A model generated the notes under the pieces. That model saw nothing but the letters and a program-made list of their open reading frames with translations, searched no databases and was not told the DNA's origin. From assembly GCF_036246005.1 (NCBI RefSeq), contig NZ_CP109171.1, positions 6,436,001-6,500,000 of the forward strand: 64,000 nucleotides of DNA, in the 5' to 3' direction. The stretch is from Streptomyces sp. NBC_01723 (GTDB taxonomy: Bacteria; Actinomycetota; Actinomycetes; Streptomycetales; Streptomycetaceae). Shown piece after piece: positions 29,676 to 48,805 of this stretch. Made by a program: the position numbers and the translations under genes. Every line of letters begins with the position of its first letter. Position 1 is the first letter of the stretch.

Positions 29676-30524
29676 TCACCCGTTGCGGGCGTACCAGGCC
29701 AGGCACCGCCGCCACAGCGCAAGCCCGGACACCAGCACCAGCAGGGCGACCAGCGGTGACAGGTACACCAGCGCGGGGGAGACCGGCACCGTGTCGGCGT
29801 GGCCGGTCAGCCACGCCGCCGGGTAGTACCCGGCGAACGCGATGGGCACCCCGAAGGTGAACGCGCCCTGGAGCGCCACCGGGAACACGCTCAGCGGGTA
29901 GTTGCCGAAGTTGCCCGCCGTGTTGTCCAGCCAGAAGAACAGGGACTCGCTGCCCCGGAACCTCAGCACCAGAGCGGCGATGTGCAGGTTGAGCCCCAGC
30001 TCGATCACGGTGGCGGCGACGACCGCCACCACCAGGAAGCCCAGCGCGGCCGGCGACCATGTCACGTCCAGCAGGGACAGGCAGACGCCGAGCGAGGCGC
30101 CGGCCACCACCAGGTCGCCCAGCGCGTTGACCGGCGCCTCGTAGGTGAAGACCTGGAGCAGCACCGGCGCCGGCCGGGTGCGGAAGGCCTCGAAGCGGCC
30201 CTCCCGCAGCAGGTGCGGGATCAGCCCGAGGTTGCCGAAGAACAGCATGTACAGGCCGTGCCCCAGCATGCGGATGCTGCTGATCAGCAGGATCTCGCCG
30301 AGGTCCCAGCCCGCCAGGGAGGGGAACCGGCTGAAGATCACCGCGGCGAAGAGCAGCACCGTGATCTGGAAGGTCACCCCGTTGGCGACGGCCATCGCGA
30401 AGTCCGCGCGGTTGGCGAGCTGGCTGCGCAGCCCGGCCCGCATGATCACGACGGCCAGCCGCAGCCGGCCCACCGGGTGCGCCCCGGACGCCGGGGCGGC
30501 GGTGTCGGAGGTCATCGGCGTCAC
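29676..30524 (-). CDS. ABC-2-type exporter permease (ABC2_membrane_6-like), second subunit
   Basis: About 280 residues with six predicted helices. It is related to the paired permeases found with multidrug/metabolite ABC-2 exporters: an amphipathic N-terminus, RSQLANRADFAMAVANG, GHGLYMLFFGNLGLIPHLLREGRFE and a C-terminal helix. GTG 30524 overlaps the preceding permease stop (GTGA); ATG 30515 is an equally possible start. Last gene of the long minus-strand operon. With the next permease and the ATPase it forms a complete exporter, probably for the cluster's product. Confidence 0.85.
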   Translation of the reverse strand: MTPMTSDTAAPASGAHPVGRLRLAVVIMRAGLRSQLANRADFAMAVANGVTFQITVLLFAAVIFSRFPSLAGWDLGEILLISSIRMLGHGLYMLFFGNLGLIPHLLREGRFEAFRTRPAPVLLQVFTYEAPVNALGDLVVAGASLGVCLSLLDVTWSPAALGFLVVAVVAATVIELGLNLHIAALVLRFRGSESLFFWLDNTAGNFGNYPLSVFPVALQGAFTFGVPIAFAGYYPAAWLTGHADTVPVSPALVYLSPLVALLVLVSGLALWRRCLAWYARNG

Positions 30525-31360
30525 CCGCCCAGGACGAGCAGTCGACGGGCGGCGCGCCGCCACATCACGCGGCTCAGCACGGCCAGCACCCCGCACCACA
30601 GGGCCCCTTCGGCCAGGTACGGCCAGCAGTCCGCCACGGTGATCCGCCCGGTGTAGAGGGAGACGGGCACGTTGATGGTCGCCGCGAAGGGCAGGTGCCC
30701 GGCGACGGAACGGAAGCCCTCCGGGAAGAACCAGAGCGGGATCAGCCCGCCCGACAGGAGCAGTTGGGCGAAGGCCACCAGCCGGTTCACGCCGAAGCTG
30801 GTGATGGTCCAGAAGCTGGTCAGGTCGACCAGCAGACCGATCTGGTAGAAGACGACCTGCCCGAGGCCGTAGGCGAGCACCGTCACCGAGGCGGCGGCCG
30901 GGGACGGCGGCAGTGCGACCAGTTGGCAGGCCACGCCCACCGCCAGGCCGACGAGCAGCCAGACCGTGGCGTACAGGCTCTCCCCGAGGCCGCGCCAGGC
31001 GCAGTAGCGGCGGGCGGAGAGCGGCCGGACGAACCAGAACACCACCGAGCCGTCGCGGATCTTGCTCTGCGCGGTCTCCTGCGAGGCCCCCTCCATGATG
31101 ACCCGGCCGGTGCCCATCAGCGTGGCCAGCACCGAGTAGGTGATGGCCTGGTCGACGTCGAGGCCGACCACCGCGCCGCCGCTCTCCCGGTACAGCGCCC
31201 GCCACAGCAGCACGTACAGGAACACCTGGGTGACGATGACGAAGGCGGTGGCCACCAGGCGCGGCCGGTAGGCCCACTCGGTGCGCGGTACCAGGGTGAC
31301 GAGCCGGTGGGCGCGCGAGGGCGGCCGCGGAGCCGGGCCGGGCCTGTCGAGGACACTCAT
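30521..31360 (-). CDS. ABC-2-type exporter permease, first subunit
   Basis: 279 residues with six predicted helices. It has RLVATAFVIVTQVFLYVLLWRALY for helix 1, SKIRDGSVVFWFVRPLSARRYCAWRGLGESL as the cytoplasmic coupling loop, and a hydrophobic C-terminal half. ATG 31360 overlaps the ATPase stop (ATGA). The two permeases differ strongly, so they form a heterodimer. Substrate unknown; context suggests an amine- or sugar-bearing metabolite. Confidence 0.85.
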   Translation of the reverse strand: MSVLDRPGPAPRPPSRAHRLVTLVPRTEWAYRPRLVATAFVIVTQVFLYVLLWRALYRESGGAVVGLDVDQAITYSVLATLMGTGRVIMEGASQETAQSKIRDGSVVFWFVRPLSARRYCAWRGLGESLYATVWLLVGLAVGVACQLVALPPSPAAASVTVLAYGLGQVVFYQIGLLVDLTSFWTITSFGVNRLVAFAQLLLSGGLIPLWFFPEGFRSVAGHLPFAATINVPVSLYTGRITVADCWPYLAEGALWCGVLAVLSRVMWRRAARRLLVLGG

Positions 31361-32382
31361 CCACCCGCCCCCGGTGCCGCGGCCCGCTGCCGTCGCGCGT
31401 CACCGTGCAGGGCCCGCAGGACGTCCTCCGCCGTCGCCCCCTCGTACCGCACCGACCGGACCGGATGGGCGGCGAGGAGTTCGGCGGTCACCCGTGCCCG
31501 GTCCGCGCCCGGCAGCGGCCTGACCCGCACGCTCGGCCCCTCCGCGGAGACCACCTCGGCGGTCAGCAGGTCGAGCGGTGGCGGCGGAGTCTCGAACTCG
31601 ACCAGGAAGACCGACTCCGCCCCGGCGACGCTCAGCCGTTCGCGGGGCCCGTCGTGGACGACCCGGCCGCGGTCGATGACGACGATGCGGCGGCACAGGG
31701 CCTCCACCTCCGCCATGTCGTGCGTCGTCAGCACCACGCAGTGGTCCCCGGTGGCGGCCAGCCGCGACAACAGCTCCCGCACCTGGTCCTTCACCAGCAC
31801 GTCCAGGCCGATGGTGGGTTCGTCCAGGAAGAGCACCCGCGGCCGGTGCAGCAGCGCCGCGGCCAGATCGCAGCGCACCCGCTGACCGAGCGACAGGAAA
31901 CGCACCGGCGTCGCCCAGAAGTCCGACAGCGAGAGCACGTCGTCGAGTTCGGCGAGCGCGCCGCGCCAGGCGTCCTGGGGCAGGCCGTGGATGTCGCGCA
32001 GGATGGAGAAGGAGTCCCGGGCGGGCAGGTCCCACCACAGCTGGGTGCGCTGCCCGAAGGTGACGCCCATGTTCCGGGCGTTGGCCTCCCGGTCGGCGTA
32101 CGGATCGAGTCCGCACACCCGGACGGTGCCCTCCTCCGGGAGCAGCAGGCCCGTCATCAGTTTGATGAGGGTGGACTTGCCGGCGCCGTTCTGTCCGAGC
32201 AGCCCGACGAACTCCCCCCGCCCGATGCGCAGTTCCACGTCGCTGAGGGCGACCGCGCGGGAAGCACGCCGCCGGCGGAAGGGCCGGCGGACGCTCCAGG
32301 CGTCGGACCGGTCCCAGGTGCGGAAGGTCTTGGTGACGCCCTCCACGTCGATGACGGGCTCCGCGAGCCCGGGAGCGCTCAC
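31357..32382 (-). CDS. ABC exporter ATPase
   Basis: 341 residues. Walker A GQNGAGKSTLIKLM, signature FLSLGQRVRCDLAAALLHRP (LSLGQ in place of the usual LSGGQ, as in this exporter subfamily), Walker B VLFLDEPTIGLD and H-loop THDMAEVEAL. A C-terminal 80-residue extension follows the core. GTG 32382 overlaps the upstream gene's stop (GTGA). Energises the two ABC-2 permeases encoded next in the operon. Confidence 0.9.
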   Translation of the reverse strand: MSAPGLAEPVIDVEGVTKTFRTWDRSDAWSVRRPFRRRRASRAVALSDVELRIGRGEFVGLLGQNGAGKSTLIKLMTGLLLPEEGTVRVCGLDPYADREANARNMGVTFGQRTQLWWDLPARDSFSILRDIHGLPQDAWRGALAELDDVLSLSDFWATPVRFLSLGQRVRCDLAAALLHRPRVLFLDEPTIGLDVLVKDQVRELLSRLAATGDHCVVLTTHDMAEVEALCRRIVVIDRGRVVHDGPRERLSVAGAESVFLVEFETPPPPLDLLTAEVVSAEGPSVRVRPLPGADRARVTAELLAAHPVRSVRYEGATAEDVLRALHGDARRQRAAAPGAGG

Positions 32383-33476
32383 GAGCCGCTCCCCGCCGCC
32401 TCCGCGTCCGCCGCGCCCCCCAGCACGGCCGCCGCCACCAGCGGGTACAGCAGCTCGCCCACCGCCGCCAGCCATTGCACCGGCACGACCCTGCGCAGCG
32501 CCCCCGGCGCCAGCGTGGCCAGCGCCTCCCGGGCCGCCGGACGGCCGAGGTCGGGGAATCCGCCGAGGTCCCGGGTCACCACGCCCAGCGCGTAGGCGGT
32601 GGTCCACACCTCGGAGAGCAGTACGTCGCTGACCCGGTCGTGGATCAACTCGCGGTGCGGGACGCTCTCCAGCGCCGTCCGCAGCGACGCCACGACCCGC
32701 TCCCGCCCGATGCCCCGCTCCAGCAGCGCCTCCTCGGCCGGCACCCGGCGCCAGCCGTCCGGACTCGCCGGGTCGCGCAGGTAGACCACGGCCAGCTGCT
32801 CCCACCAGCAGAAGTACGGCACCGCGCGCATCGCGGGCAGCACGGAGCCCTCCGGGTCGCCGGCGGGGGCGAGGCAGGCGGCGCTGCGCGGGCCCATCAC
32901 GTCGTTGCCGACGAGGCTCGGCGGGTTGGCGTGGTCGACCGGGCCGGCCACCGGGACGACCCGGCCGACGTCGTGCAGGTAGTCGAGCAGGGTGACGTCG
33001 TCGGTCGCGTCGGGTGCGGCCTTCGCGGCGGCGTACTCCTCGAACCCCCGGGCCAGTGCGGCGGGCAGCACCAGCGCGACGGACGGGAGGTAGTCGTCCA
33101 CCACGGGCGCCCAGGCGTGGCCGAGCAGCGCCGCGGCACGGACCGCGTTGGCGGTGCGCGAACCCCACTCGGTGAACAGGCTGACGGAGTCCCCCGGCCG
33201 GGCGGCGGCCAGCGCGGCGACGGTGTCCGCGAAGTCCGGGGAGAGCACCGCGTCGTCCTGGAGCACCAGGTGGTGCGTGGCGTCGGCGGCCACGGACCGC
33301 CAGGCCAGGCGCGCGGTGCGCAGGGCGGACGGCGGACCCTGCGGCTCCGGGTCGGTGACGACCCGCGCGGCGAGCGCGGGGTGCGCCTCGCCCAGCGCCT
33401 CGGCCGCGGCCCGCCGGCGCGGGTGGGCCATGATCACGGTGGACAGGCGGAGGTCGGAACGGTGCGGTGTCGTCAT
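32379..33476 (-). CDS. GT25-like glycosyltransferase
   Basis: 365 residues. The N-terminal half resembles family-25 (LPS/procollagen-type) galactosyl/glucosyltransferases: LSTVIMAHPRRRAAAEAL, then HLVLQDDAVLSPDF with the metal-binding DDA, and a DDVTLLDYL acidic motif. The C-terminal 150 residues contain PYFCWWEQLAVVYLRDP and are not assigned. No signal peptide or membrane helix. ATG 33476 has only a weak GAGA site. A 114-base G-rich gap separates it from the preceding GT2 gene. It is coupled to the exporter ATPase by a 4-base overlap, tying glycosylation to export. Family assignment is moderate. Confidence 0.65.
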   Translation of the reverse strand: MTTPHRSDLRLSTVIMAHPRRRAAAEALGEAHPALAARVVTDPEPQGPPSALRTARLAWRSVAADATHHLVLQDDAVLSPDFADTVAALAAARPGDSVSLFTEWGSRTANAVRAAALLGHAWAPVVDDYLPSVALVLPAALARGFEEYAAAKAAPDATDDVTLLDYLHDVGRVVPVAGPVDHANPPSLVGNDVMGPRSAACLAPAGDPEGSVLPAMRAVPYFCWWEQLAVVYLRDPASPDGWRRVPAEEALLERGIGRERVVASLRTALESVPHRELIHDRVSDVLLSEVWTTAYALGVVTRDLGGFPDLGRPAAREALATLAPGALRRVVPVQWLAAVGELLYPLVAAAVLGGAADAEAAGSGS

Positions 33477-33590
33477 TCTCGGGTCTTTCTCGCGGGGCTT
33501 CGGGGGACGGGGGAGGTCGGGGACGAAGGGGCGGACGGGTCGGTCGTGCGGCGGGAGCCGTGGGCCGCGGCCCGGACGGGGGGGCGGCGG

Positions 33591-35144
33591 TCACCGCTCC
33601 GTCTTGCCGAGCACCGGCGGCCCGCCGCGCAGGACGCGGGCCAGGTGCCGGACCGGCCCCGCCCAGTGCAGGAGCGGCTGGGCGAGGAACGCGAGCACGA
33701 GTACGGGGACGCGGACGGGGGCCGCCGGTCCGCCGGGTGGTTCGGCGCGGGCGTCGGCCCCCCGGTGCGCGGCCAGCCAGCGCCGGGCCCGCCGCACGCA
33801 CCACCAGGCGTGCAGCAGTGTGTAGGCGCAGGCCGCGAACGCCCAGGCCAGCAGCGGACCGTGGGCGCCGCGCGCGACCAGGGTGCCCAGCGCCGCGAGC
33901 ACGACGGCGGGACCGGCGAACCACCACAGCGTGTCCAGCCCTTCCTTGACCAGCACCACGGTGTTGCGGAGCCGGAAGGCGCGCAGGACCGGATCGGTCA
34001 GCAGTCGCCGGCACCCGGCGAGCGAGCCGTGCGCCACCAGCGCGTACGCCTTGCCGAGCGCCGCCGTACCGGAGTACCGGTCGACCAGGTTGAACACGGG
34101 CAGCACCTCCATCACCGCGCCGGCGGAGGAGAGTTTGTAGCCGACGAGGAGATCGTCGACGGGCTCCTCGTACATGCCGATGGACACCAGGGTGTCGTGC
34201 CGGACGAACAGTCCGGCCCCGACGCCGTACACCACCGGCTCGGCCACGGCCGTCACGCCCGCCGGCAGCCGTGCGGCCCGGATGCGGCGCCGGGCCAGGA
34301 GGCGGTGGGCCTCGACGCCCGCCCGGCGGCGCAGGTCGGCCAGGGCGTGGGCGCGCAACAGCACGTCCGCGCCGCCGGGGCGGGCCGCGTGCGGGCGGCG
34401 CAGCTGGAGCGGGAGCTGCTGGACCAGGTCGGGCGCGGGGCCGCCGCCGTCCGGGGAGACGGCGGCGGCGAGGTGCGTCAGGGTGTCCAGATCGGGCTGC
34501 GAGTCGGCGTCGTAGAGCCCGACATAGGTGAACGAGGGCGCGGCGTCCGGCGGCAGCAGCTCCGGCAACCGCTCCACCGCGTGCACGAGCTGGCTGCTCT
34601 TGGCGCCCTCGTCCGGGTAGTGCAGGTGGTGCAGGCTCACGCCCGGATGTTCCGCCGCGACCTCAGGCAGCAGCGCGCCGGCGACCTCGCGGGTGGTGGG
34701 GACGGCGTCGAGTTCGGCCCGCAGGGTGCCCGCCGGGTCGGCGGAGGCGCGGGTGCGCTCCGCCGTCCGGGCCGCCAGGCCGGAGGGCACCACACCGGCC
34801 AGCACGGCCGCGTCCCGGGCGCCGCCGGCGACGAGGGCCGCCGCGAGGGCGGGCAGCCGGTCCACCACCGCCCGCCGCTCCCGCTCCTCGCGCTCCGTGG
34901 TGACGACGACCACGTGCAACAGGCCCGGGGGATACGGCAGTCCGGCCGCCGCCCGCACCACCTCGCCCAGCAGCTCCTGTTCGCGCAGCGCCGGCACTAG
35001 CAGCACGACGTGCGGCGCGCTGTCCGGCGCCACCGCGTGCCCACGCCGCCGGTCCAGGACACGGGCCGCGAGGGCCGCGCGGACGCTCAGCAGCACGCCC
35101 CACAGCAGTACCCCCCACAGCACGGCCAGGGCTGTCACGGTCAT
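33591..35144 (-). CDS. Membrane GT2 glycosyltransferase
   Basis: 517 residues. An N-terminal membrane helix is followed by VVLLVPALREQELL, YPDEGAKSSQLVHAV and GLYDADSQPDLD, which is a GT2 core with donor-binding and DxD motifs. VGAGLFVRHDTLVSIG and the VDDLLVGYKLS acceptor-site region follow, then three to four C-terminal helices. This layout is that of processive or lipid-linked transferases working at the membrane. ATG 35144 overlaps the decarboxylase stop (ATGA). It probably adds a sugar to, or polymerises, the product before export. Confidence 0.8.
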   Translation of the reverse strand: MTVTALAVLWGVLLWGVLLSVRAALAARVLDRRRGHAVAPDSAPHVVLLVPALREQELLGEVVRAAAGLPYPPGLLHVVVVTTEREERERRAVVDRLPALAAALVAGGARDAAVLAGVVPSGLAARTAERTRASADPAGTLRAELDAVPTTREVAGALLPEVAAEHPGVSLHHLHYPDEGAKSSQLVHAVERLPELLPPDAAPSFTYVGLYDADSQPDLDTLTHLAAAVSPDGGGPAPDLVQQLPLQLRRPHAARPGGADVLLRAHALADLRRRAGVEAHRLLARRRIRAARLPAGVTAVAEPVVYGVGAGLFVRHDTLVSIGMYEEPVDDLLVGYKLSSAGAVMEVLPVFNLVDRYSGTAALGKAYALVAHGSLAGCRRLLTDPVLRAFRLRNTVVLVKEGLDTLWWFAGPAVVLAALGTLVARGAHGPLLAWAFAACAYTLLHAWWCVRRARRWLAAHRGADARAEPPGGPAAPVRVPVLVLAFLAQPLLHWAGPVRHLARVLRGGPPVLGKTER

Positions 35145-37555
35145 GCCGGCTCCGTTCCGCCGGCCGCGCCGTCCGGCACGGACAGCCGCCGGTGTCCCTC
35201 GCGGGCGAGCGCGGCCTCGCGCAGGGAGGCGAGCCGCGGGTGCAGTCGCCCGGCCCATCCCACCACCTCGGAGGGGGTGAGTGCTTCCGGGTCGCCCACG
35301 GGGATGCCCGGCAGCAGAGCGGGCAGCCGCGCGCCGAGCCCGAGCGGCACGGTGAAGGCGGCGCCGCCCTCTCCGCCGACCGCCGCCAGCTCCACGCGCA
35401 GGGCGCCTTCGGCGACGGACGCCGTCACCCGGACCAGGTCCAGCAGCGCCGACCGGGCGAGCAACGGCCCCTCGGGACCGGCCGGCCACCGCTGCGCGTA
35501 CGCCCGGCCCACCGTCAGGTCGACGACCGTGTCGAAGAAGCGGTTGGGGAACCGGCGGTACTGTCCGCGCAGCAGATGGCGGCGGCGCGGCAGCGCGGGA
35601 TCCGCGTGCCGGGCCACCCGGGTGATCCGGGGGACGGCCGCGTCGTCCGTCAGCCGCACCCGCAGCTCGAGTGACGTGTCCAGGGAGAAGGAGTAGTCGT
35701 TCCCGTCGCGGCGCACGCTGCGCGCGTCCTTGCCGATCTTCACCACGACGTGGTCGGCGAAGACCTGCACCTCGTCGTTGTACCGGCGGTCGCCGTACTT
35801 GTACTCGACGGACCGGAAGGCGCCGTCCGCGTGGAAGTTGGCGAGGACCACGGGCCGGTCCGGGGTGCGCGGCTCGGGACCGAAGACGGCGAAGTGGGCC
35901 GCTCCCACCAGCGAGAGCTTCTGCTGGTTGCGGTCGAGGACCTCCAGCGAGTACCGATCGGGGTCGGTCACCCCGAACAGCTCGTTCGCGAACGGCGCCG
36001 CCAGGTCGGGCGCGTAGACGTACAGGCCGGTACGGCCGCCGTCCTCACCGGTCCACGGGCGGGCGGCCAGCTCCTCCCCGAGACCGGCCCGGTCCTGGAA
36101 GGTGTGGAAGGAGTAGGCGTGCGGATGGTCGTCCGGGTCGCGGCGGCCCGGCGGATGCACCACGAGGTGCCGCAGGCACACGCTGCTGCGCCGCAGGTCC
36201 CGCAACTCGCCCGCGGGGTTCGCCGGCGCGGCGGGGACCTCCCGCCGGGGCACGCGCGCCGCGCCCGCGAGGGCGGCGGCGAGCGCGGCGCCGAAGCCGT
36301 CCACGTGGGCCGGGGTCAGGTGGGGCATGGCGTAGAAGTGGTGGAACAGCCGCTCTCCGGCCGAGCCGTCCGGCGCCGTCCACGGGAGGGTGTTGCCCAC
36401 CAGGCGGTAGCGCTCGGCGAGTTCGGCGGGCAGCCTGCCCTCCCCGTGCGAGAAACCGGCGACGACCACCGTGTTGCCGGGGGAGGGCAGCACCACCGCG
36501 TCGGGGTCGGCGGCACGGATCGCGTCGGCGAGCCGGTCGCGCACGCCCAGGCAGTCGCGGAACACCTCGCGGTAGCCGTCCGCGGCCAGCCCGAAGACCA
36601 GTGACCACAGGGCCGCGGCCATCGCCCCGGAGCGCGACCCGCTGATCGTCTCGTCGACGAAGCCGGACATCGGGGCCGGCACCGCGCCGTGCCCGAGCAG
36701 CCCCTTGCGGCACAGGAAGACCCCGCAGCTGTACGGCATCAGCCCGGACTTGTGCGGGTCGAGCACGACCGAGTGGACGTACGGGTTGCGGAAGTCGAAG
36801 GGCACCTCGGGCGCGGTGAACGGCAGGATCATGCCGCCGTGCGCGGCGTCCACGTGGTGGAAGACGCTCAGGTTCCCGCCGCCGGCCGCCCGCCGGGCCA
36901 GTACGGCGGAGATGGCGTCCACCGGGTCGACCAGGCCGGTGTTGTAGTACCCGGCGGTGGACACGACGACGACTCCGGTACGGGCGCCCGGCCCGGTCTC
37001 CTCGGCCAGGGCGTCCAGCGCGGCGTCCACGGCCTCCGCCTCCAGCAGCCAGGAGGGCCCGGCCGGGCACGGCCGCAGCTCCAGGTCGAGGATCTCGGCG
37101 GCCTTGGCCACGGAGTGGTGGGTGAGCGCCGACGCGAGGACGACGACCCGTCCGGCGCCCGCCGCGCGCAGGGCGTTGCGGCCGATGCGCAGGCCCGCGA
37201 GGGTGCCCTCGTTGGCGCCTCCGGTGAGGTAGCCGTCGGCGGCGTCGGCGTGCAGCAGCCCGGCGAGCGCGAGGACCGCCTCGCGTTCCAGGCGCCGGGT
37301 GCCGCGGACGCCGTCGCCGAAGCGGGTGTGGACGCCCACGTTGTTGGGATTGCGTTCGGCGAAGCGCCCGAACGCGTCCAGGGCCAGGGCGTGCGGCGCC
37401 GTCATGGCGAACCCCAGCCGCACCGGGTCGTCCGGGGAGTGCCAGCCGGGCACCTCGGCCAGGCGCTCGTCCAGCACCCGCGCCAGCTCGGCACCGGACA
37501 GCGGGACGTCCGGGAAGGCGTCGGTCTCGGTCGAACCGTCCTCCAGGTCGGCCAC
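35141..37555 (-). CDS. Group II PLP-dependent decarboxylase fused to an unknown C-terminal domain
   Basis: 804 residues. Residues about 40-430 are a fold-I amino-acid decarboxylase of the glutamate/tyrosine/aromatic type: His147 in THHSVAKAA stacks on PLP, Asp236 in HHVDAAHGG binds the pyridine nitrogen, and Lys269 in DPHKSG is the Schiff-base lysine. The remaining 370 residues match no family I know. They are rich in beta-type segments (VEYKYGDRRYNDEVQVFADHVVVKIG; RRRHLLRGQYRRFPNRFFD). Stand-alone decarboxylases are 450-500 residues, so this is a fusion. GTG 37555 starts one base after the methyltransferase stop, with GGAGGA about seven bases upstream. Substrate unknown; it would yield an amine. 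Confidence 0.85.
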   Translation of the reverse strand: MADLEDGSTETDAFPDVPLSGAELARVLDERLAEVPGWHSPDDPVRLGFAMTAPHALALDAFGRFAERNPNNVGVHTRFGDGVRGTRRLEREAVLALAGLLHADAADGYLTGGANEGTLAGLRIGRNALRAAGAGRVVVLASALTHHSVAKAAEILDLELRPCPAGPSWLLEAEAVDAALDALAEETGPGARTGVVVVSTAGYYNTGLVDPVDAISAVLARRAAGGGNLSVFHHVDAAHGGMILPFTAPEVPFDFRNPYVHSVVLDPHKSGLMPYSCGVFLCRKGLLGHGAVPAPMSGFVDETISGSRSGAMAAALWSLVFGLAADGYREVFRDCLGVRDRLADAIRAADPDAVVLPSPGNTVVVAGFSHGEGRLPAELAERYRLVGNTLPWTAPDGSAGERLFHHFYAMPHLTPAHVDGFGAALAAALAGAARVPRREVPAAPANPAGELRDLRRSSVCLRHLVVHPPGRRDPDDHPHAYSFHTFQDRAGLGEELAARPWTGEDGGRTGLYVYAPDLAAPFANELFGVTDPDRYSLEVLDRNQQKLSLVGAAHFAVFGPEPRTPDRPVVLANFHADGAFRSVEYKYGDRRYNDEVQVFADHVVVKIGKDARSVRRDGNDYSFSLDTSLELRVRLTDDAAVPRITRVARHADPALPRRRHLLRGQYRRFPNRFFDTVVDLTVGRAYAQRWPAGPEGPLLARSALLDLVRVTASVAEGALRVELAAVGGEGGAAFTVPLGLGARLPALLPGIPVGDPEALTPSEVVGWAGRLHPRLASLREAALAREGHRRLSVPDGAAGGTEPA

Positions 37556-37556
37556 G

Positions 37557-40428: not shown

Positions 40429-40553
40429 GGAAATCGCAGTCTCCTGGGTGGGGTGAGAGCGCGGTTCGACGGCGGTGACGGCGTCACGGGGCCTGGTGCG
40501 GCCCGGTCACGGTCCCCGGTCGGAGGGCGATGGTGCGGTCGGTGCCCGGCGGG

Positions 40554-41207: not shown

Positions 41208-41280
41208 GATGAATCAATCCCCCGTCCCCCGTGCATGGCGAAGCCGACGGCCTCGACGAACGCGCCGCCCTGCCTCGCCC

Positions 41281-41327
41281 TTTGGTCTGGACCATTGAAC
41301 TCTAGGCGGCAACGCCGCCTACTTCAA
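41281..41327 (-). promoter_or_regulatory. Promoter of the HAD operon with spacer palindrome and DasR-type box
   Basis: On the minus strand TTGAAG (41322-41327), exactly 17 bases, then TAGAGT (41299-41304) form a good promoter with a start near 41292. The spacer is filled by a perfect palindrome TAGGCGGC-AAC-GCCGCCTA (41303-41321), which could also serve as the terminator of the GH3 gene upstream. TTTGGTCTGGACCATT (41281-41296) covers the predicted start and matches 12 of 16 positions of the DasR responsive element. Confidence 0.6.
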
Positions 41328-41408
41328 CAGCCTTTCGGGAGCACGGCTCGAGTACGGGTCGGTCCCTGCTCGATCGGGCCCCGCACGGCGCGCGCCCCGC
41401 GTCCCCCG

Positions 41409-42926
41409 TCAGTCCCTCCCCGTCAGCACGTCGGCCGCCGCCACCCCCGACGCCGCGCTCGCGCCGTGCGTGAAGATCTGGGCATGTGCCGCCGTGACCG
41501 CGCCCGGCAGGCCCATCTCCACCACGATCGCGTCGGGGCGGGCCGTGGTCAGGCCGGTCACCGCGCGGCTCATCCACGGGTGGCGGGCCGCGTCGCGGGC
41601 CACGACGACCAGGGGGCGTCCCGCGGCCGGTTCGAGAGCGCAGCTCGTCAACTCCAGGGTTCCCTCGCGCAGTTCCTCGTCGTGCACCCGCACCGAGGTC
41701 GTGCCGGGCAGTCGCTCGCGCAGCGGGTCGGCGACGCCCCACGGGGTCTCCTTGCCGATCGCCATGTTCGTCACCGGTGCCAGTTCGACCACGTGCGGCG
41801 CGGCGGTCAGCGGCAGCGCCTCGCGCGCGCCCCCGGTGAGCCGGACGGCGCGGCGGGCGGCGAGGTGTCCGATCCCGGCGCCGGCCGTCTCCCCGGCGCC
41901 CCCGGCCGACGCCCGCAGCGCGGCCGACCAGCCGGCGAACTCCCGTACCCGGCCCGCCGCCTCGGCCAGCCGTTCCTCCGGCAGCTCACCGGCGGCGACC
42001 GCGGCGGCCAGCGCCTTGACCAGCAGCTCGGTCGTGGCCTCCTCGGCGCTCTCGCCGCCGACGCAGATCGCGTCCACCCCGGCGGCGACGGCCTTCACCG
42101 TGGCGCCGTCGATGCCGTACCGGCGGGTGACGGCGCCCATCTCGATGGCGTCGCTGACCACCAGCCCGTCGAAGCCCAGTTCGTCGCGGAGCAGGTCCCG
42201 CAGGATGCGCCGGCTGAGCGTGGCCGGCAGGTCGGGGTCGTAGGCGGGCACGAGCAGATGGCCGCTCATCACCGCGCGCACCCCGGCCGAGAGGGCCGCC
42301 CGGAACGGGGGCAGGGCCTGGGCCGCGATCTCGTCCCGCCCGGCACCGTAGGCCGGCAGGTCGTGGTGCGAGTCGACGGCGACGTCCCCGTGGCCGGGGA
42401 AGTGCTTGGCGCAGGCGGCGACGCCGGACGACTGGAGGCCCCGGATCCACGCGGCGGTGTGCCGGGAGGCCACGTCGGGGTCCGAGCCGAAGGAGCGTAC
42501 GCCGATGATGGGGTTGTCGGGGTTGGAGTTGACGTCCGCGCTCGGCGCGTAGTCGAGGCTCACTCCGGCGGTGCGCAGCTGCCGGCCCAGGTCGGCGGCG
42601 ACGGCCTCGGTCAGCTCCGGGTCGTCGACCGTGCCGAGCGCGAAGTTGCCCGGCCGGGACGATCCGGTGGCCGACTCGATCCGGGTGACGTCACCGGCCT
42701 CCTCGTCGATGGCGACAATCAGCTCCGGGTTCTCCGACCGCAGTTGCGTGGTCAGCCGGGCGACCTGCTCGGTGGAGACGATGTTGCGGGAGAAGAGCAC
42801 CACGGAGGCCAGGCCGTCGCCGATGTCGCGCAGGACCCAGTCGGGCGCCTCGGTGCCGACGAAGCCGGGCTGGAGGACGGAGAGCGCGAGCCGACGCAGC
42901 TCGCCGTTGTGCTTGCTGGAGGCCAT
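41409..42926 (-). CDS. Glycoside hydrolase family 3 beta-N-acetylhexosaminidase (NagZ-like)
   Basis: 505 residues. GH3 catalytic domain: IVAIDEEAGDVTRIE, the GlcNAc-specific loop AKHFPGHGDVAVDSHHDLP carrying the His/Asp dyad used as general acid, and LVVSDAIEMGAV with the nucleophile Asp. A C-terminal domain of about 160 residues follows. No signal peptide, so it probably cleaves imported chitobiose or muropeptide-type GlcNAc glycosides in the cytoplasm. ATG 42926 with AAAGG eight bases upstream. DasR-type boxes lie 25 and about 137 bases upstream of the start, fitting GlcNAc regulation. It stands between the two arms of the unknown cluster. Confidence 0.88.
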   Translation of the reverse strand: MASSKHNGELRRLALSVLQPGFVGTEAPDWVLRDIGDGLASVVLFSRNIVSTEQVARLTTQLRSENPELIVAIDEEAGDVTRIESATGSSRPGNFALGTVDDPELTEAVAADLGRQLRTAGVSLDYAPSADVNSNPDNPIIGVRSFGSDPDVASRHTAAWIRGLQSSGVAACAKHFPGHGDVAVDSHHDLPAYGAGRDEIAAQALPPFRAALSAGVRAVMSGHLLVPAYDPDLPATLSRRILRDLLRDELGFDGLVVSDAIEMGAVTRRYGIDGATVKAVAAGVDAICVGGESAEEATTELLVKALAAAVAAGELPEERLAEAAGRVREFAGWSAALRASAGGAGETAGAGIGHLAARRAVRLTGGAREALPLTAAPHVVELAPVTNMAIGKETPWGVADPLRERLPGTTSVRVHDEELREGTLELTSCALEPAAGRPLVVVARDAARHPWMSRAVTGLTTARPDAIVVEMGLPGAVTAAHAQIFTHGASAASGVAAADVLTGRD

Positions 42927-42950
42927 CGGGCGCGCCTTTCGGTGACGTTT

Positions 42951-42966
42951 CTTGGTATAGACCAAG
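42951..42966 (-). promoter_or_regulatory. DasR-type operator upstream of the GH3 gene
   Basis: CTTGGTATAGACCAAG has perfect CTTGGT/ACCAAG arms and the TGGTNTAGACCA core of DasR responsive elements. Read on the minus strand, TATACC within it could be the -10, with CTGAAC 16 bases upstream. Confidence 0.65.
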
Positions 42967-43050
42967 GGGGTGCGCGTTCAGGTTAACCAGACCTGTCAAG
43001 AGGGGTGTCGCCGAACCGGGAAGTAACAACTTTCCTCGTCGGGCGGGGTG

Positions 43051-43080
43051 TTGACACCCTCCCTTGGTCTAGTCCATTGT
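43051..43080 (+). promoter_or_regulatory. Promoter of the PhyH operon containing a DasR-type box
   Basis: TTGACA (43051-43056), an 18-base spacer and CATTGT (43075-43080). The spacer and -10 are covered by CTTGGTCTAGTCCATT (43063-43078), 12 of 16 matches to the DasR responsive element. The arrangement predicts repression that is lifted when glucosamine phosphate accumulates. Confidence 0.6.
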
Positions 43081-43413
43081 GAGGCGCAAGTTCGGCGAGG
43101 GACACATGGGACACCAGTTACCGCGCCGGACACCTGCCGCGGCCGGGCTGCGAAGACCGCCCGCGACGCCTTCCGTACGACCACTTCCGTGACGACCACC
43201 CCGGACGAGACGACCATTCCGGACGAGAGCGCGGACCGGGCGAGCCCCTGAACCGGGAGAGCCCCGTCCGTCCGAGCCGCCCTCGTCGCCCCGCTCCGCC
43301 CCCGGACGCGAGCGGGCCCCGCTGCCCCCACCGACCTGATGTGTGACGGCCCGACCTCCGTCGCACACACCGCCGTTGCCGCACGGTGCGACGGCGAGGA
43401 TCTGGAGCACCAC
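43081..43413 (+). other. 333-base leader of the PhyH operon
   Basis: No conserved gene or clear RNA element seen. It contains one short frame (43106-43192, 28 codons, GAGGGA five bases upstream, one TTA codon) that could be a leader peptide, and a Thr/Pro/Asp-rich frame after it; neither has a recognisable product. Confidence 0.4.
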
Positions 43414-44499
43414 ATGGCGACGCCCGATTCCTACCTCCACCGAGCCCCGTCGGCCATCCCGTACTTCAGCGCGGACGCCGACACCTACCTGGCCCGCACC
43501 CAGCTGCGCGACCTGGACAAGACCCGTCCACTGCGGGTGCTGTCCGAGGAGGACTTCGCGCACTGGCAGACGTACGGCTACGTCGTGGTCAAGGAGGCGA
43601 TACCCGCCTCCTCCGCGCGCCGACTGCTCGACTTCGCCTGGGAGTTCCAGGGCCTCGACCCGGACCGCCCCGACACCTGGTACCAGGACCGCGAGTACCG
43701 CTCCGACCTCGACCGGGAACTGCACATCTACGGCTTCGTCGAGGCGTACCAGCACCAGCTCATCTGGGACAGCCGGCAGACCCGGCGCGTGTACGACGCC
43801 TTCGTCGACGTGTGGGACGTCGAGGAGCTGTGGGTCACCCTGGACCGGCTCAACCTCAACCCGCCCAACGTCGGCAACCGCGACCGCGCCCTCATCGACA
43901 AGCCCGACCGCGGCTTCGACATCGACCTGCACTGGGACGTCGACACCACGCTCGGCGTACTGCCCCAGCGCGTCCAGGGCATCATCGCCCTCAACGACAC
44001 CAAGCCCGACCACGGCGGCTTCCAGTGCTGTCCCGAGCTGTTCCGCCGCTTCGACCGCTGGAAGGCGCTCCAGCCCGACGGCCGTGACCCGATCCGGCCC
44101 GCGATCGACCGCGAGGACATGCCCGTCGTACGGCCCGACCTGGAGGCCGGCGACCTGCTCATCTGGAACGGCCTGCTGGCCCACGGAGTGGCGCCCAACG
44201 TCTCCGGCGAGGGCGTGCGCGCCGTCCAGTACCTGTCGATGATGCCCGCGCTGGAGAGCCACCGGCGGCTGCGCGACTCCCGCGTCGACTCCTGGCGCAC
44301 CCTGGCCACCCCCGACTGGAACGTCACGCTCCTCGGCGACGCCCACCGCCACGAGTCCGAGCGCTACGGGCCCGCCGAACTGAACGAACTGGGCGCCAGG
44401 CTGCTGGGCCTGACGTCCTGGCACGCGGACGCCGGCACCGGCACGGACGAGGCGACCGACGAGGCCACCGGGGACGCCGCATGCGCAGCATCTGCCTGA
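43414..44499 (+). CDS. Phytanoyl-CoA dioxygenase (PhyH)-family Fe(II)/2-oxoglutarate oxygenase
   Basis: 361 residues. A double-stranded beta-helix oxygenase with iron ligands His173 and Asp175 (DLHWDVDT) and distal His257 (WNGLLAHGVAPN); Arg269 (GVRAVQYLS) can bind 2-oxoglutarate. GGFQCCPELF matches the family. It most likely hydroxylates a small substrate or amino-acid-derived intermediate. ATG 43414 with CTGGAG six bases upstream. First gene of the plus-strand arm; the next gene starts inside its last codons (19-base overlap). The C-terminal 25 residues are an acidic Thr/Ala tail. Confidence 0.85.
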   Translation: MATPDSYLHRAPSAIPYFSADADTYLARTQLRDLDKTRPLRVLSEEDFAHWQTYGYVVVKEAIPASSARRLLDFAWEFQGLDPDRPDTWYQDREYRSDLDRELHIYGFVEAYQHQLIWDSRQTRRVYDAFVDVWDVEELWVTLDRLNLNPPNVGNRDRALIDKPDRGFDIDLHWDVDTTLGVLPQRVQGIIALNDTKPDHGGFQCCPELFRRFDRWKALQPDGRDPIRPAIDREDMPVVRPDLEAGDLLIWNGLLAHGVAPNVSGEGVRAVQYLSMMPALESHRRLRDSRVDSWRTLATPDWNVTLLGDAHRHESERYGPAELNELGARLLGLTSWHADAGTGTDEATDEATGDAACAASA

Positions 44500-45806
44500 C
44501 CCTGCCCACCAACCGGCACTGCCCGGACACCATCACGGCACTCGGCGAGGAAGCGGCCTACGCGACCGCTCACTTCGACATCGATGTCCACCTGCTGGTC
44601 CTCGACTCCTGCCCGCCCGAGGACCACGCCGCCCACGCAGAGGCGCTGCGGCGGCTGCCCGCGCACCCCCGGATCACGGCGCACCACCTCGACGAGGCCG
44701 CCCAGCGCGACTTCCTGGAGCGGGTCACGGCACGCTCCGGCAGCGCCAAGCCCGAGCTGCTCCTCGACCTGATGCTGCCCGACGGCCTGTCCTACGGCGC
44801 CTGCACCAACCGCGCCTTCCTGATCGCGGCGGCACTCGGCTGCGAGTCCGTGCACCGCAGGGACTCCGACAGCCGCTACCAGAGGGTGGACGGCCGCACC
44901 GTCTTCCCCGTCCACCACGAACTCCTCTCCCTCGGCAGGCCCGCCGCCGACGCCTTGCCCGGCGTCACCGAGTCCGACCTCGCCGACGGCCTGCTGGAAC
45001 GGCGGATCGCCATGGTGGGCAGCTCCTTCGTGGGCGAACTCTCCGTGGACATCGCGCGGATACGCGACGCCGACCCCGGCGTCTACCACGACGTGGTCTC
45101 CCTGTGGGCGCCCGAGGACTGGACCCCCGAGCAGAAACGGGAGCTGGTCGAGGAGTCCTTCGCCGGCGCCGGCACCGAACCCTTCACGACGGACCACTCG
45201 CTGCTCACGGTGGTCGACCCGATGCGGGTCGACATGTGCAACATCGCCTTCCACGGGGAGACGGTCAGCGAGCGCGTACCGCTGCCGCCCGCCCGCGACA
45301 CCATCGGCAGCGACTACTTCCTCATCCACCTGGTGCACGACGCCCGGCTGCCCGGCGTGCTGCACAACCGCAACATCGTCAACTACTACACCGGCGAACG
45401 ACGGACCGGCCCCGGCTTCCTCGCCTACCAGACCCGCTTCGCCAAGTTCCTGCTGTCGATGCTCTACTTCCACTTCGTCTACGACCGCATGGCCGAGGCG
45501 GGCGACACCCTCCTGGACGAGCACGGCCGGGCCCGCCCCGCCGCGGTCGCCGCCCTGGCCCGCGAGAGCACCGGTCTGGACACCGCGGAGAACGTTCGCA
45601 GACTCGACGCCCTCGACAGCGCCTACCGGCGCCTCGGCGGCGCGTACGCCGACTTCGCCGACCTGCTGGCCGGCCGGCGCGAGCGGCTCCTCGACGAGGC
45701 GCGCGGCGACATGGCCGACTTCGCCCTGCTGACCGAGGCGTGGCAGGGGCTGGTCGCCGCCGCCAAGGCCACGCCCCCGGTCCGGCCGCCGGTGGCGCCG
45801 CGGTGA
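44481..45806 (+). CDS. DUF6271-like protein, probable GT-A-fold glycosyltransferase
   Basis: 441 residues. It opens MRSICLTLPTNRHC and has a Rossmann-like start, HLLVLDSCPPEDH, then CTNRAFLIAAALGCESVHRRDSDSRYQ where Asp128-Ser-Asp130 looks like a metal-binding DxD. I believe it matches the uncharacterised DUF6271 family of Streptomyces gene clusters, but this needs a search. The C-terminal half is helical with YYTGERRTGPGFLAYQTRFAKFLLSMLYF. No signal peptide. ATG 44481 overlaps the dioxygenase end, and its own stop overlaps the decarboxylase start (GTGA). Function not established. Confidence 0.65.
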   Translation: MRSICLTLPTNRHCPDTITALGEEAAYATAHFDIDVHLLVLDSCPPEDHAAHAEALRRLPAHPRITAHHLDEAAQRDFLERVTARSGSAKPELLLDLMLPDGLSYGACTNRAFLIAAALGCESVHRRDSDSRYQRVDGRTVFPVHHELLSLGRPAADALPGVTESDLADGLLERRIAMVGSSFVGELSVDIARIRDADPGVYHDVVSLWAPEDWTPEQKRELVEESFAGAGTEPFTTDHSLLTVVDPMRVDMCNIAFHGETVSERVPLPPARDTIGSDYFLIHLVHDARLPGVLHNRNIVNYYTGERRTGPGFLAYQTRFAKFLLSMLYFHFVYDRMAEAGDTLLDEHGRARPAAVAALARESTGLDTAENVRRLDALDSAYRRLGGAYADFADLLAGRRERLLDEARGDMADFALLTEAWQGLVAAAKATPPVRPPVAPR

Positions 45807-47023
45807 GCGCGGTGACGGGCCCGGTGCCGGGCGCGGTCCTCGGCGAGCCCCTGGCCGCCGCCCTCGCCGCCGCCTCCGAGGACCGCATCGTCTACGACCT
45901 GGCCGGCATCGAGCAGCGGTACGACACCCTGCGCCGGGAACTGCCCGGCGTCGAGGTGCGGTTCGCGATGAAGGCCTGCCCGGTCGACGAGGTCCTCACC
46001 GCCCTGGCCCGACGCGGCGCCGGCGCCGACGCGGCCAGTCCCGGCGAGATCGAACAGGCGCTGCGCGCCGGGGTGCCGGCCGGGCGCGTGCACTACGGCA
46101 ACACCGTCAAGTCCGACCGGAACATCGCCGAGGCGTACCGGCTCGGCATCCGCACCTTCGCCACCGACAGCGTCCAGGACGTCGCCGCCGTCGCCCGCCA
46201 CGCCCCCGGCGCCCGCGTCTTCTGCCGGGTGGCGACCGGCGGGGCGGGCGCCGTGTGGGGACTCAGCAACAAGTTCGGCTGCTCGCCCGGCGACGCCGTC
46301 CACGTCATGGAGCGGGCCCGGGACGCCGGTCTGGTCCCGGCCGGCCTGTCCGTGCACGTCGGCTCCCAGCAGATGACCGGCGAGGCGTGGCACGCCGCCA
46401 TCGAGGACCTCGGCGAGGTGCTGCGCGCGCTGGACCGGGGCGGTATCCGCGTCGACCACGTCAACCTCGGCGGCGGGCTGCCCGCGCTCGGCTACCGCGA
46501 CCGGCGCGGCACCCCTCTCGACCCACCGCTGGACAAGATCTTCGCGGTGATCCGGGAGGGCACGGACGAACTCCGCCGGATCCACGGCGGACCGCTGGAC
46601 TTCGTCATCGAACCCGGCCGGCACCTCGTCGCCGACCACGGCGCGATCCGCGCCCACGTCGCCCGCCTCACCGAACGCCGGGACGCCGACGGCGAACGGC
46701 GGCACTGGCTCTACCTGAGCTGCGGCAAGTTCAACGGACTGTACGAGATGGACGCCCTCCAGTACCGGCTGGTGTTCCCGACCCACCCCGACGGGCCCAC
46801 CGTCCGGGCCGTCGTCGCCGGACCCACCTGCGACAGCGACGACGCCTACTCCCACGAGGACGCACTGGTGCCGGTACCCCGGGCACTCGCCTCGGGCGAT
46901 CCGGTCTGGGTGCTGTCCTCGGGCGCCTACGCGACCAGCTACACGACCCTGGGCTTCAACGGCTTCGCCCCGCTCCCGTACGCCTGGGCGGACCGCCCCG
47001 AGGGGACCGGCGCCGATGACTGA
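45803..47023 (+). CDS. Fold-III PLP-dependent decarboxylase (ornithine/diaminopimelate type)
   Basis: 406 residues. Alanine-racemase-like barrel with Schiff-base Lys57 (RFAMKACP), HVGSQQ near residue 185 and NLGGGLP. Phosphate- and substrate-binding Glu270 (IEPGRHLVADHG) and active-site Cys343 (GPTCDSDD) follow, with a C-terminal GAYATSYTTLGFNGFAPL. The GPTCDSDD motif is typical of ornithine/lysine rather than diaminopimelate decarboxylases. It would make a diamine or related amine for the pathway. GTG start overlaps the preceding stop, and its stop overlaps the GNAT start by eight bases. Confidence 0.85.
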   Translation: MSAVTGPVPGAVLGEPLAAALAAASEDRIVYDLAGIEQRYDTLRRELPGVEVRFAMKACPVDEVLTALARRGAGADAASPGEIEQALRAGVPAGRVHYGNTVKSDRNIAEAYRLGIRTFATDSVQDVAAVARHAPGARVFCRVATGGAGAVWGLSNKFGCSPGDAVHVMERARDAGLVPAGLSVHVGSQQMTGEAWHAAIEDLGEVLRALDRGGIRVDHVNLGGGLPALGYRDRRGTPLDPPLDKIFAVIREGTDELRRIHGGPLDFVIEPGRHLVADHGAIRAHVARLTERRDADGERRHWLYLSCGKFNGLYEMDALQYRLVFPTHPDGPTVRAVVAGPTCDSDDAYSHEDALVPVPRALASGDPVWVLSSGAYATSYTTLGFNGFAPLPYAWADRPEGTGADD

Positions 47024-47576
47024 CACCGTGCGCGTCCGGCCCCTCGCCGACCGGGACTGGGACGCCGTCGTTGCGCTGGAGCGGGACGCCTACACCGGCC
47101 TCGGGCTGTCGGAGGGCCGGGCGGCGCTGGAGTCCCGCGCGGCGGCCTCGCCGGACACCTGCTTCGTCGTGGACGTCGGCGCCCGCACCGCCGGATACGT
47201 GCTGGCCCTCCCTTACCCGCCGCACCGCTACCCGGACCTGACGCGGGCGGAGGAGGCCGCGACGGCCTTCCCGACCGGCAACCTCCACCTGCACGACATC
47301 GTCGTGGCGCCCGGCCTGCGCCGCAGAGGGCTGGCGCGGCACCTGCTGCACCACCTCACCGGCACCGCCCGGACGCGCGGGGACGAGCGGATCTCGCTGG
47401 TCGCCGTGGGCGGCACCGAGCGGTTCTGGTCGACGCGCGGCTTCGTGGCCGAGCCGGGGGTGGTGCCCGACGGCGCCTACGGCGGCGAGGCCGTCTACAT
47501 GTCCAAGCCGGTCCCGGCCCACCCGTCCCTGTCCCCGCCCCCGAGCCCGCCCCCGTTCCTGCGCGAAGTGAGCTGA
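47016..47576 (+). CDS. GNAT-family N-acetyltransferase
   Basis: 186 residues. Acetyl-CoA-binding motif A is LHDIVVAPGLRRRGLARHLLHHL; the N-terminus VRVRPLADRDWDAVVALERDAY and C-terminal WSTRGFV are also typical. A Pro/Ser-rich tail of 20 residues ends the protein. Encoded between a decarboxylase and an exporter, it most likely acylates the amine product for self-protection or as a biosynthetic step; this is inference. ATG 47016 lies within the decarboxylase end and its stop shares one base with the MFS start. Confidence 0.85.
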   Translation: MTDTVRVRPLADRDWDAVVALERDAYTGLGLSEGRAALESRAAASPDTCFVVDVGARTAGYVLALPYPPHRYPDLTRAEEAATAFPTGNLHLHDIVVAPGLRRRGLARHLLHHLTGTARTRGDERISLVAVGGTERFWSTRGFVAEPGVVPDGAYGGEAVYMSKPVPAHPSLSPPPSPPPFLREVS

Positions 47577-48805
47577 TGCGCGTGTCCCGTGTCCACGACC
47601 CCTTCCTGCGCGGCCAGTTGGCGATCGCCGCGCTGTTCCTTTCCCTCGGCTTCCAGTACGCCACCTGGGCCGCGCGGATCCCGGCGATCAAGTCCGACCT
47701 GGACCTGAGCGCCGCCGAGGTGGGGGTGCTCCTGATGGCCGCGGGGGTCGGCGCGGCGGTGTCGTTCCCGGTGGTGGCGTGGCTGATGCGGCGCATGGGC
47801 TCGCGGCGGCTCGGCCTGCTCTCCCAGCTCGGCCTCGCCCTCCTGCTGCTCGGCCTGGCGGCGGCCCCCAACTACCCGGTGGCCCTGCTGGTGATGTGCG
47901 CCGACGGCGTCCTCGTCGGCTGCCTGAACGTGGCCATGAACGCGCAGGGAGCCGCCCTGGAGGCACGGCACGAACGCAACACCATGGCGAAGCTGCACGC
48001 GACGTTCTCCGCCGGCTCGCTGCTCGCCGCGCTGCTCGCCTCGGGCATGACCGCCGCCACCGACGCGGTCGCCGCGCACTTCGGCGTGGCCGTCGTCCTC
48101 CTCGTCGCCCTGGGCGCGTCCGCGCGGACGGGGCTCCTCGACGACGAGGCACCGGCGGACGAGGCGGGCGAGGCGGCCCGTGCGGACGCGGCCGCCACCG
48201 CCGACGGGAAACCGGCCGGCCGCCGCTGGACCGTCCCCTCCAGCCTGACCCTGTGGATGTGCTGCGCCATGGTCTTCGGCACGGTCGCCGAGGGCGCCAT
48301 GAACGACTGGTCCGCCCTCTACCTCAAGGACGTCGCCGAGGCGTCGGCGGAACTCGCGCCCCTGGGCATCGCCGTGGTGTCCGGGATGATGGTCGTCGCC
48401 CGCCTCTTCGCCGACGGCTGGCGGGCCCGCTGGGGCGACGGCCGGGTCGTCCTCCTCGGCAGCGTGGTCGCCGCCGCCGGCCTCGCCCTCGCGCTGGTCA
48501 GCGGCGGCGTCGCACCGGCCCTCGCGGGCTTCGCCTGCATGGGCCTGGGCATCGCCGCCGTGACCCCCTGCGTCTACGCCGCCGCGGCCCGTCAGGGCTC
48601 GGACGCGCTCACCCTGGTCGCCGCCATGGGGACCACCGGACTGCTGGCCGGGCCGCCGCTCATCGGCTTCATCGCCGGTGCGAGCAGCCTGGCCTGGGGC
48701 ATGGGCGCCGTCGCCGCGTCCGCGGGCGCCGTCGCCCTGTGCAGCACCCGCATCCGCTGGACCCCGGCACCGGCCGTGCCGGACGAGGCCGCCACCCCCG
48801 CCTGA
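47576..48805 (+). CDS. Major facilitator superfamily transporter
   Basis: 409 residues, about twelve helices. First half: LGFQYATWAARIPAIKSDLDLSAAEVGVLLMAAGVGAA, with the loop MRRMGSRRLGL. A hydrophilic central loop of about 40 residues (EAPADEAGEAARADAA) follows, then a second half with AEGAMNDWSALYLKDV. It resembles FucP/YbjJ-like carriers. ATG 47576 overlaps the GNAT stop (TGATG). As the last gene of the arm it probably exports the product; alternatively it imports a sugar. Confidence 0.85.
   Translation: MRVSRVHDPFLRGQLAIAALFLSLGFQYATWAARIPAIKSDLDLSAAEVGVLLMAAGVGAAVSFPVVAWLMRRMGSRRLGLLSQLGLALLLLGLAAAPNYPVALLVMCADGVLVGCLNVAMNAQGAALEARHERNTMAKLHATFSAGSLLAALLASGMTAATDAVAAHFGVAVVLLVALGASARTGLLDDEAPADEAGEAARADAAATADGKPAGRRWTVPSSLTLWMCCAMVFGTVAEGAMNDWSALYLKDVAEASAELAPLGIAVVSGMMVVARLFADGWRARWGDGRVVLLGSVVAAAGLALALVSGGVAPALAGFACMGLGIAAVTPCVYAAAARQGSDALTLVAAMGTTGLLAGPPLIGFIAGASSLAWGMGAVAASAGAVALCSTRIRWTPAPAVPDEAATPA

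Follow-up and report, generated by a model that had tools for sequence, protein, structure and literature searches.

In Streptomyces coelicolor, chromatin immunoprecipitation on chip found the SCO6032–SCO6033 region bound by DasR at both 24 h and 54 h, the site being cttggtctagtccatt, and SCO6032 was called a beta-N-acetylhexosaminidase; the available part of that paper assigns the gene to the chitinolytic core regulon and contains no mention of a biosynthetic cluster (PMC4398421). The daptomycin cluster has no regulator of its own and is under direct DasR control, according to the available part of PMC9404778. The subject of the present work is a 64,000-nucleotide stretch of Streptomyces sp. 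NBC_01723 (contig NZ_CP109171.1, positions 6,436,001 to 6,500,000; the window), in which two groups of genes, arm A and arm B, lie between hemE and a pyridine nucleotide-disulphide reductase gene. Each arm is conserved as a unit, the two occur apart, and each has a predicted DasR-type operator in its promoter. The reading that we favour, and consider probable, is that two separate small-molecule clusters share this insertion-prone site, both with a DasR-type operator.

By the gene numbering of whiI and hemE, SCO6032–SCO6033 would occupy the same chromosomal place as arm B. What the S. coelicolor region has in common with arm B is a GH3-type function name and an intergenic operator, the window site CTTGGTCTAGTCCATT being identical to the S. 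coelicolor site at 16 of 16 bases as given in the available part of PMC4398421. Like the daptomycin cluster, as described in the accessible part of PMC9404778, the arms show no regulator domain by Pfam among their 16 genes; the difference is that two unrelated modules are present here and that their control by DasR is predicted. A third point of comparison is arm A and the pyrrolnitrin cluster, with which it shares a PrnB-like enzyme. In the pyrrolnitrin cluster the partners of PrnB are a halogenase and a Rieske oxygenase; neither was found by Pfam among the ten arm A genes, which instead include a decarboxylase, a kinase, a methyltransferase and glycosyltransferases. Searches of the open-licence literature found no description of the arm A type of cluster (PrnB/heme/Streptomyces, monodechloroaminopyrrolnitrin synthase gene clusters), no paper on DUF6271, and nothing on PhyH, ornithine decarboxylase, DasR and N-acetylglucosamine (GlcNAc) combined with gene cluster.

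Two operons in the hemE–reductase interval

The original prediction had described ten minus-strand and five plus-strand genes as a single two-armed biosynthetic and export system at a possible insertion site. All fifteen genes were confirmed: they show coding bias, and their starts are plausible. They make up two coherent operons, and each operon brings its own exporter; the segment that holds them is variable, and the whiI–hemE...hemG–chdC backbone around it is conserved. Missing from that gene list was a GH3 gene that lies between the arms. The features are as follows.

29669..49265, no strand: hemE–reductase interval, 19.6 kb here
29676..30524, minus: arm A permease A, ABC2_membrane_6 (PF06182, E 1.8e-32)
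30521..31360, minus: arm A permease B, ABC2_membrane_6 (PF06182, E 9.7e-20)
31357..32382, minus: arm A ABC ATPase (ABC_tran); best NCBIfam model DrrA-type, score under the cut-off
32379..33476, minus: arm A GT25-like gene, a label without Pfam support; the sole arm A gene kept in genomes G277 and G200
33591..35144, minus: arm A GT2 glycosyltransferase (PF13641, Glyco_tranf_2_3); one N-terminal and two C-terminal hydrophobic segments
35141..37555, minus: arm A fused group II pyridoxal phosphate (PLP) decarboxylase (Pyridoxal_deC); PLP domain at residues ~1–440, with Lys269
37557..38225, minus: arm A class I S-adenosylmethionine methyltransferase (Methyltransf_25/11, Pfam)
38222..39364, minus: arm A GHMP-type kinase (GHMP_kinases_N); alternative start 39298
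39361..40428, minus: arm A PrnB-like heme enzyme (PF08933, E 1.9e-28)
40554..41207, minus: arm A HAD phosphatase-like, first gene of the operon (Pfam)
41409..42926, minus: arm B GH3 beta-N-acetylhexosaminidase-like (NagZ-like), 505 residues (Pfam, E 1.6e-72)
43414..44499, plus: arm B PhyH-type enzyme (Pfam); alternative start 43339
44481..45806, plus: arm B DUF6271 (Pfam, E 9e-229); predicted GT-A fold nearest the GT75 mutase MtdL
45803..47023, plus: arm B fold-III ornithine/lysine-type decarboxylase (ODC; Orn_Arg_deC_N); start at 45803 or 45812
47016..47576, plus: arm B GNAT acyltransferase (Pfam)
47576..48805, plus: arm B MFS exporter (MFS_1, Pfam)

The permease stop at 29676 lies 7 bases beyond the hemE stop, as had been noted. 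The 4-base overlaps are indeed frequent, occurring at 6 of 9 arm A junctions with the chosen starts (one hinges on the GHMP start, 39364 versus 39298); the remaining three junctions measure +1, +114 and +125 bases, and the four in arm B are overlaps of 19, 4, 8 and 1 bases. A Pfam scan of the 16 genes likewise bore out the stated lack of polyketide synthase, non-ribosomal peptide synthetase, terpene and lanthipeptide domains. Beyond the MFS gene there is a small plus-strand reading frame (48903–49250, 115 residues), and a similar-sized frame occupies the same place in genome G200 (locus L163, 737–1078).

The PrnB-like protein of arm A scored 99.8 bits against PF08933 (cut-off 27) and matched PrnB of pyrrolnitrin biosynthesis (PDB 2v7i, E 2.6e-44) and the PrnB homologue 9dfg (E 1.4e-27). 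The histidine of PHLQLA/PHLKLA and the GSGGY motif align between PrnB and the arm A protein. This histidine is presumably the proximal heme ligand of PrnB. The fused decarboxylase differs from the group II PLP decarboxylases MfnA, serine decarboxylase and S1P lyase by a beta-rich C-terminal domain of ~350 residues (~450–800), which belongs to no Pfam family and was found almost solely as a decarboxylase fusion; in a fold search of the fused protein the match list was filled by the PLP domain, and the C-terminal domain was barely probed. H268–K269 is invariant in 30 rows of the alignment, and we take K269 to be the Schiff-base lysine of group II PLP decarboxylases. The label ‘GT25-like’ finds no support in Pfam, where no glycosyltransferase family was matched even at E ≤ 1; an LVLQDD motif is the only feature of this protein that resembles a GT-A enzyme.

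The GH3 protein, its gene placed between the arms, belongs with arm B. Its best NCBIfam model was NF003740 (NagZ) at 184.6 bits versus a cut-off of 207, and it has no hydrophobic segment by hydropathy. Nagstatin is a hexosaminidase inhibitor; it was considered as the arm B product for the pairing of GH3 and GNAT and was dropped, no nagstatin gene cluster being found in the open-licence literature. DUF6271 carries a D128-S-D130 (DxD) motif that is invariant in 25 rows, and in its predicted structure the GT-A plus core plus C-terminal helix fold of GT75 is present.

The interval itself was compared in ten genomes picked by hand. The whiI–hemE...hemG–chdC order was kept in 10/10, the reductase gene was matched in 9/10 and DUF4349 in 8/10, while the hemE–reductase gap ranged from ~ 0.07 to 9.4 kb, versus the 19.6 kb of the window. 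The interval looks like an insertion hot spot, as had been suspected.

Distribution, linkage and history of the arms

Type-1 arm A, which runs from HAD to the two permeases, was present in nine genomes: those of the window, S. rochei NRRL B-2410 (L064), NRRL WC-3626 (L065, G131), S. spinosus (L066), man185 (L067, G126), S. lasiicapitis (L068), S. atriruber (L069, G081), NRRL F-5630 (L070) and G066. The ten genes form one stretch in the window, G066, S. spinosus, S. lasiicapitis and NRRL F-5630; they are spread over two contigs in G131 and G126, and run into contig edges in S. rochei and S. atriruber. A second type was found in six Streptomyces (L029/G149, L030/G023, L062/L074, L063/L072, L071 and L073), whose loci retain GT2, decarboxylase, PrnB-like, GHMP and methyltransferase genes. 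The two type-2 loci that were scanned, L030 and L071, have in addition an APH-type kinase, a NUDIX protein, a flavin amine oxidase and, under the Pfam cut-off, a dual-specificity-phosphatase-like protein. Nocardia wallacei (L075) has the decarboxylase, PrnB-like and methyltransferase genes as well as a HAD match; its GHMP gene lies on the opposite strand. These assignments used 13 of the 79 loci found in one search, namely 12 (L064–L075) that span most of the query and L076, which covers residues 1–340; in the other 66 the match was confined to residues 1–390. A protein search, in which 31 proteins were listed, also gave relatives in S. parvulus, Streptomyces sp. BBFR51 and NPDC048232, and more distant ones in Micromonospora and Kitasatospora. 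The plasmid collection, searched with arm A DNA, gave no match.

Among 150 genomes of the same genus, PrnB-like matches were found in 22, seven of them (the window's included) at 45% identity or above, and these are the same seven that have the fused decarboxylase. At E ≤ 1e-60 the latter was present in 9/392 genomes of the genus, 7 of the 9 being among the 150. Two side observations concern arm A relatives. Three stretches (L031 9742–10848, L032 9633–10706, L033 9601–10758) hold a distant PrnB-like clade of ~32% identity, with no further arm A match in them. In genome G203 (L164, 6476–7543 and 11033–15889), an ABC ATPase and two permeases similar to the arm A set lie between two distant GT25-like genes, so the pairing of a GT25-like gene with an ABC transporter may be an export unit that is reused.

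Patchy spread bears on another account of arm A, in which it decorates the cell envelope with a glycolipid or glycan: the GT2, the GT25-like protein and the ABC-2 exporter would build and flip a lipid-linked sugar bearing a methylated, phosphorylated amine. The hydrophobic segments of the GT2, its weak similarity to HpnB (far under the model cut-off) and the ABC-2 permeases would all suit such a role. Set against them are the presence of the fused decarboxylase in so few genomes, its absence from another genome of the same species, and the PrnB-type enzyme, which suits specialised metabolism better. We regard envelope decoration as unlikely.

Arm B is far more common. DUF6271 was matched in 51 of the 150 genomes, two of the matches being weak (28% and 34% identity), and in 4/296 genomes of the phylum, all four within the window's genus. 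A TGA within the matched DUF6271 stretch of G131 proved to be a normal gene end and nothing more. GH3 accompanies PhyH–DUF6271–ODC–GNAT–MFS in 9 of the 11 loci L034–L044 (L034–L039 and L041–L043), with ODC matched only in part in L043. The other two, L040 (G066; 8410–13880) and L044 (G059; 9071–14443), have PhyH–DUF6271 without GH3, ODC or GNAT matches. L040 has a stand-alone condensation domain followed by an MFS exporter, and its divergent neighbour has a weak, below cut-off likeness to class II tRNA synthetases; L044 has similar gene sizes in the same order, domains having been scanned in L040 only. The free-standing condensation domain thus replaces ODC and GNAT in G066 (and, by gene size, in G059), so that acylation looks interchangeable.

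The original prediction had placed both arms in a single linked system, and this was not supported: the genes are real and the site is insertion-prone, but two clusters had been joined as one. Arm A adjoins the arm B GH3 gene in only 2/9 type-1 genomes, the window and S. rochei NRRL B-2410, and no arm B match was present in the arm A flanks read in the other seven (including S. spinosus, S. lasiicapitis and NRRL F-5630). In G066 the ten arm A genes are collinear and DUF6271 is 1.76 Mb away; in the type-2 genome G023, PrnB-like and DUF6271 are 2.25 Mb apart. Independent occurrence of the arms, named beforehand as evidence against a joint system, was therefore seen for linkage but not for co-occurrence at the genome level, since all 7 arm A genomes of the 150 have DUF6271, versus 44/143 of the others.

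This co-occurrence is the main point in favour of one pathway with two arms, in which arm A would use an intermediate or product of arm B, for example an unusual sugar donor, and the arms would cooperate even when unlinked. DUF6271 is present in 9/9 type-1 genomes; with the window genome left out, the comparison is 6/6 arm A genomes (4 type-1, 2 type-2) versus 44/143 (Fisher 0.0012; when G066 and G126, which are near-identical, are taken as a single genome, 0.0035). The operator type common to both arms and the adjacency to GH3 in two genomes point the same way. These tests ignore relatedness, however, and the genomes are not phylogenetically independent; the four type-1 lineages alone give 0.013. 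Moreover, the arms are non-adjacent in 7/9 type-1 genomes, DUF6271 occurs without arm A in 44/51 genomes, ODC is matched in 7/9 type-1 genomes (the window included) with no match in G066 and G126, and DUF6271 accompanies type-2 arm A in only 3/6 Streptomyces and 0/1 Nocardia. We judge a single pathway improbable.

At the hemE locus itself, no more than 10 kb separates DUF6271 from chdC in 3 of the 51 DUF6271 genomes (the window's, G118 and G136); a further 24 have both genes on one contig at a distance of at least 60 kb, and the remaining 24, with the genes split between contigs, give no measure of nearness. G118 and G136 carry GH3 directly after hemE and thus have arm B without arm A at the locus. 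In G277, of the window's species, and in G200, all that separates hemE from GH3 is one intact GT25-like gene (96% and 92% identity; L061 8293–9381, L163 8773–9861). The L061 remnant is trimmed nearly exactly to the gene, as if the solitary gene had a use of its own. In S. rochei, GH3 is beside HAD as in the window, and the other arm B genes share a second contig with the reductase gene, hemG and chdC; the sequence seen stops before arm A's hemE side is reached.

A tree of arm B proteins placed S. rochei outside ((G118,G136),(G200,(window,G277))) with local support of 0.98. A core-gene tree without outgroup did not conflict with it, and a tree of GH3 alone had low support, the outgroup falling inside. 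This topology weakens recent insertion of arm A, at first the simplest story: S. rochei carries arm A next to GH3 and lies outside the group that holds the empty-site genomes, which is better explained by an older gain and later losses. Taken most simply, the trees would point to a single old gain of arm A at the locus and, after it, one full loss and some partial ones; as an alternative we retain a second gain in the strain of the window. Full cluster, one-gene remnant and empty site among close relatives provide a natural comparison at one locus.

DasR-type operators and the readings they bear on

A search of the window with the full 16-base consensus of the DasR site (dre) gave no match within three mismatches. 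Operators were then sought with the 12-base sequence TGGTCTAGACCA, which we take to be the dre core, and places were counted within one mismatch. The core agrees with the table in the part of PMC4398421 that was available. The 8.85-Mb genome has 23 such places, three of which lie in the window within 1.8 kb of one another (41283, 42953 and 43065).

41299..41327, minus: arm A promoter-like TTGAAG-N17-TAGAGT; TTGNNN-N17-TANNNT in 9/9 type-1 loci
41283..41294, minus: DasR-type operator TGGTCCAGACCA, 4 bases past the arm A −10 box
42953..42964, no strand: DasR-type operator TGGTATAGACCA, upstream of GH3
43051..43076, plus: arm B promoter-like TTGACA, then operator TGGTCTAGTCCA, with the site at 43065

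In type-1 arm A, the predicted operator is located 3–6 bases past the −10 box in 9/9 loci (eight with one mismatch, one with two). In 3000 simulations for each such 200-base stretch, the chance of a site with at most one mismatch was 0 to 0.0007, and with at most two 0.0017 to 0.0063; given that the loci are related, the nine sites do not amount to nine independent draws. In arm B, each of the 12 loci scanned has, upstream of PhyH, a site that differs from one or the other of two cores by at most one mismatch, and TTGACA came shortly before the operator in 11/12. The L040 and L044 variants also have DasR-type sites upstream. L041 and L042, in which GH3 and PhyH run in the same direction, were left out of that scan and have sites upstream of GH3, the nearest two in L042 having two mismatches. 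Two further DasR-type sites were seen upstream of other genes. The new point is this common operator type, which links the arms by predicted regulation, and, for arm A, its fixed place in nine loci.

Several observations weigh against the favoured reading as it concerns regulation and the role of DUF6271. The genome-wide motif excess is modest, 23 places versus 16 for the reversed control pattern. In none of the stretches read of the six type-2 arm A loci did a site come within one mismatch, and their two-mismatch sites are inside the cluster or away from it, so GlcNAc control is not general to the arm A family. For DUF6271, the predicted fold is similar to that of the GT75 nucleoside diphosphate-pyranose mutase MtdL (A201A cluster) and of rice UAM, yet at 14% identity; there is no detectable sequence-profile relation to MtdL, and, judged by spacing from DxD, no Arg that is invariant in DUF6271 stands where the GT75 nucleophile (MtdL Arg159) would be expected.

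Alternatively, the arm A site could be fortuitous or could serve a GntR-type regulator other than DasR, with arm A outside the DasR regulon. DasR control of arm A is a prediction from sequence, the type-2 loci lack the site, and the motif background is not negligible. On the other hand, the site keeps its place in all nine type-1 loci while the flanking bases vary, and its chance occurrence is low, though the loci are related. This explanation appears improbable to us, to about the same degree as the single pathway. More doubtful still is a distributed pathway, with unlinked clusters kept in the same genomes, fired together by DasR on GlcNAc, and arm A building on the arm B product; were it true, the product would be a new class of glycosylated, methylated amine, and the adjacency seen here would unite the two halves.

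Proposed products and significance

To return to two separate clusters under a common operator type, arms A and B probably make and export sugar- or amine-containing small molecules. DasR would repress both arms; GlcNAc from chitin or lysed hyphae would lead to glucosamine-6-phosphate, which would release DasR and turn both on. Such a shared switch would account for neither cluster having its own regulator. In arm B, the GT75-like DUF6271 may supply or transfer an unusual sugar, PhyH would hydroxylate, ODC would provide an amine from a basic amino acid for acylation by GNAT, and the MFS protein would export the product, with the cytoplasmic NagZ-like GH3 trimming or detoxifying GlcNAc conjugates. 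In arm A, an aromatic, tryptophan-like amino acid could be the substrate of the fused decarboxylase, and this substrate is the weakest step of the proposed chemistry. The PrnB-like heme enzyme would oxidise or rearrange the ring, the methyltransferase and GHMP kinase would give a methylated, phosphate-masked intermediate, and glycosylation by the glycosyltransferases, ABC export and removal of the phosphate by HAD would follow.

Arm A brings a decarboxylase fused to a ~350-residue domain outside the Pfam models, and GlcNAc is a simple predicted inducer for a product search. About one in three genomes of the genus sample has DUF6271, and among the arm B sites is one that DasR bound in S. coelicolor, as reported in the available part of PMC4398421. 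A widespread, uncharacterised biosynthetic cluster may therefore be hidden in what has been called a ‘chitinolytic’ regulon.

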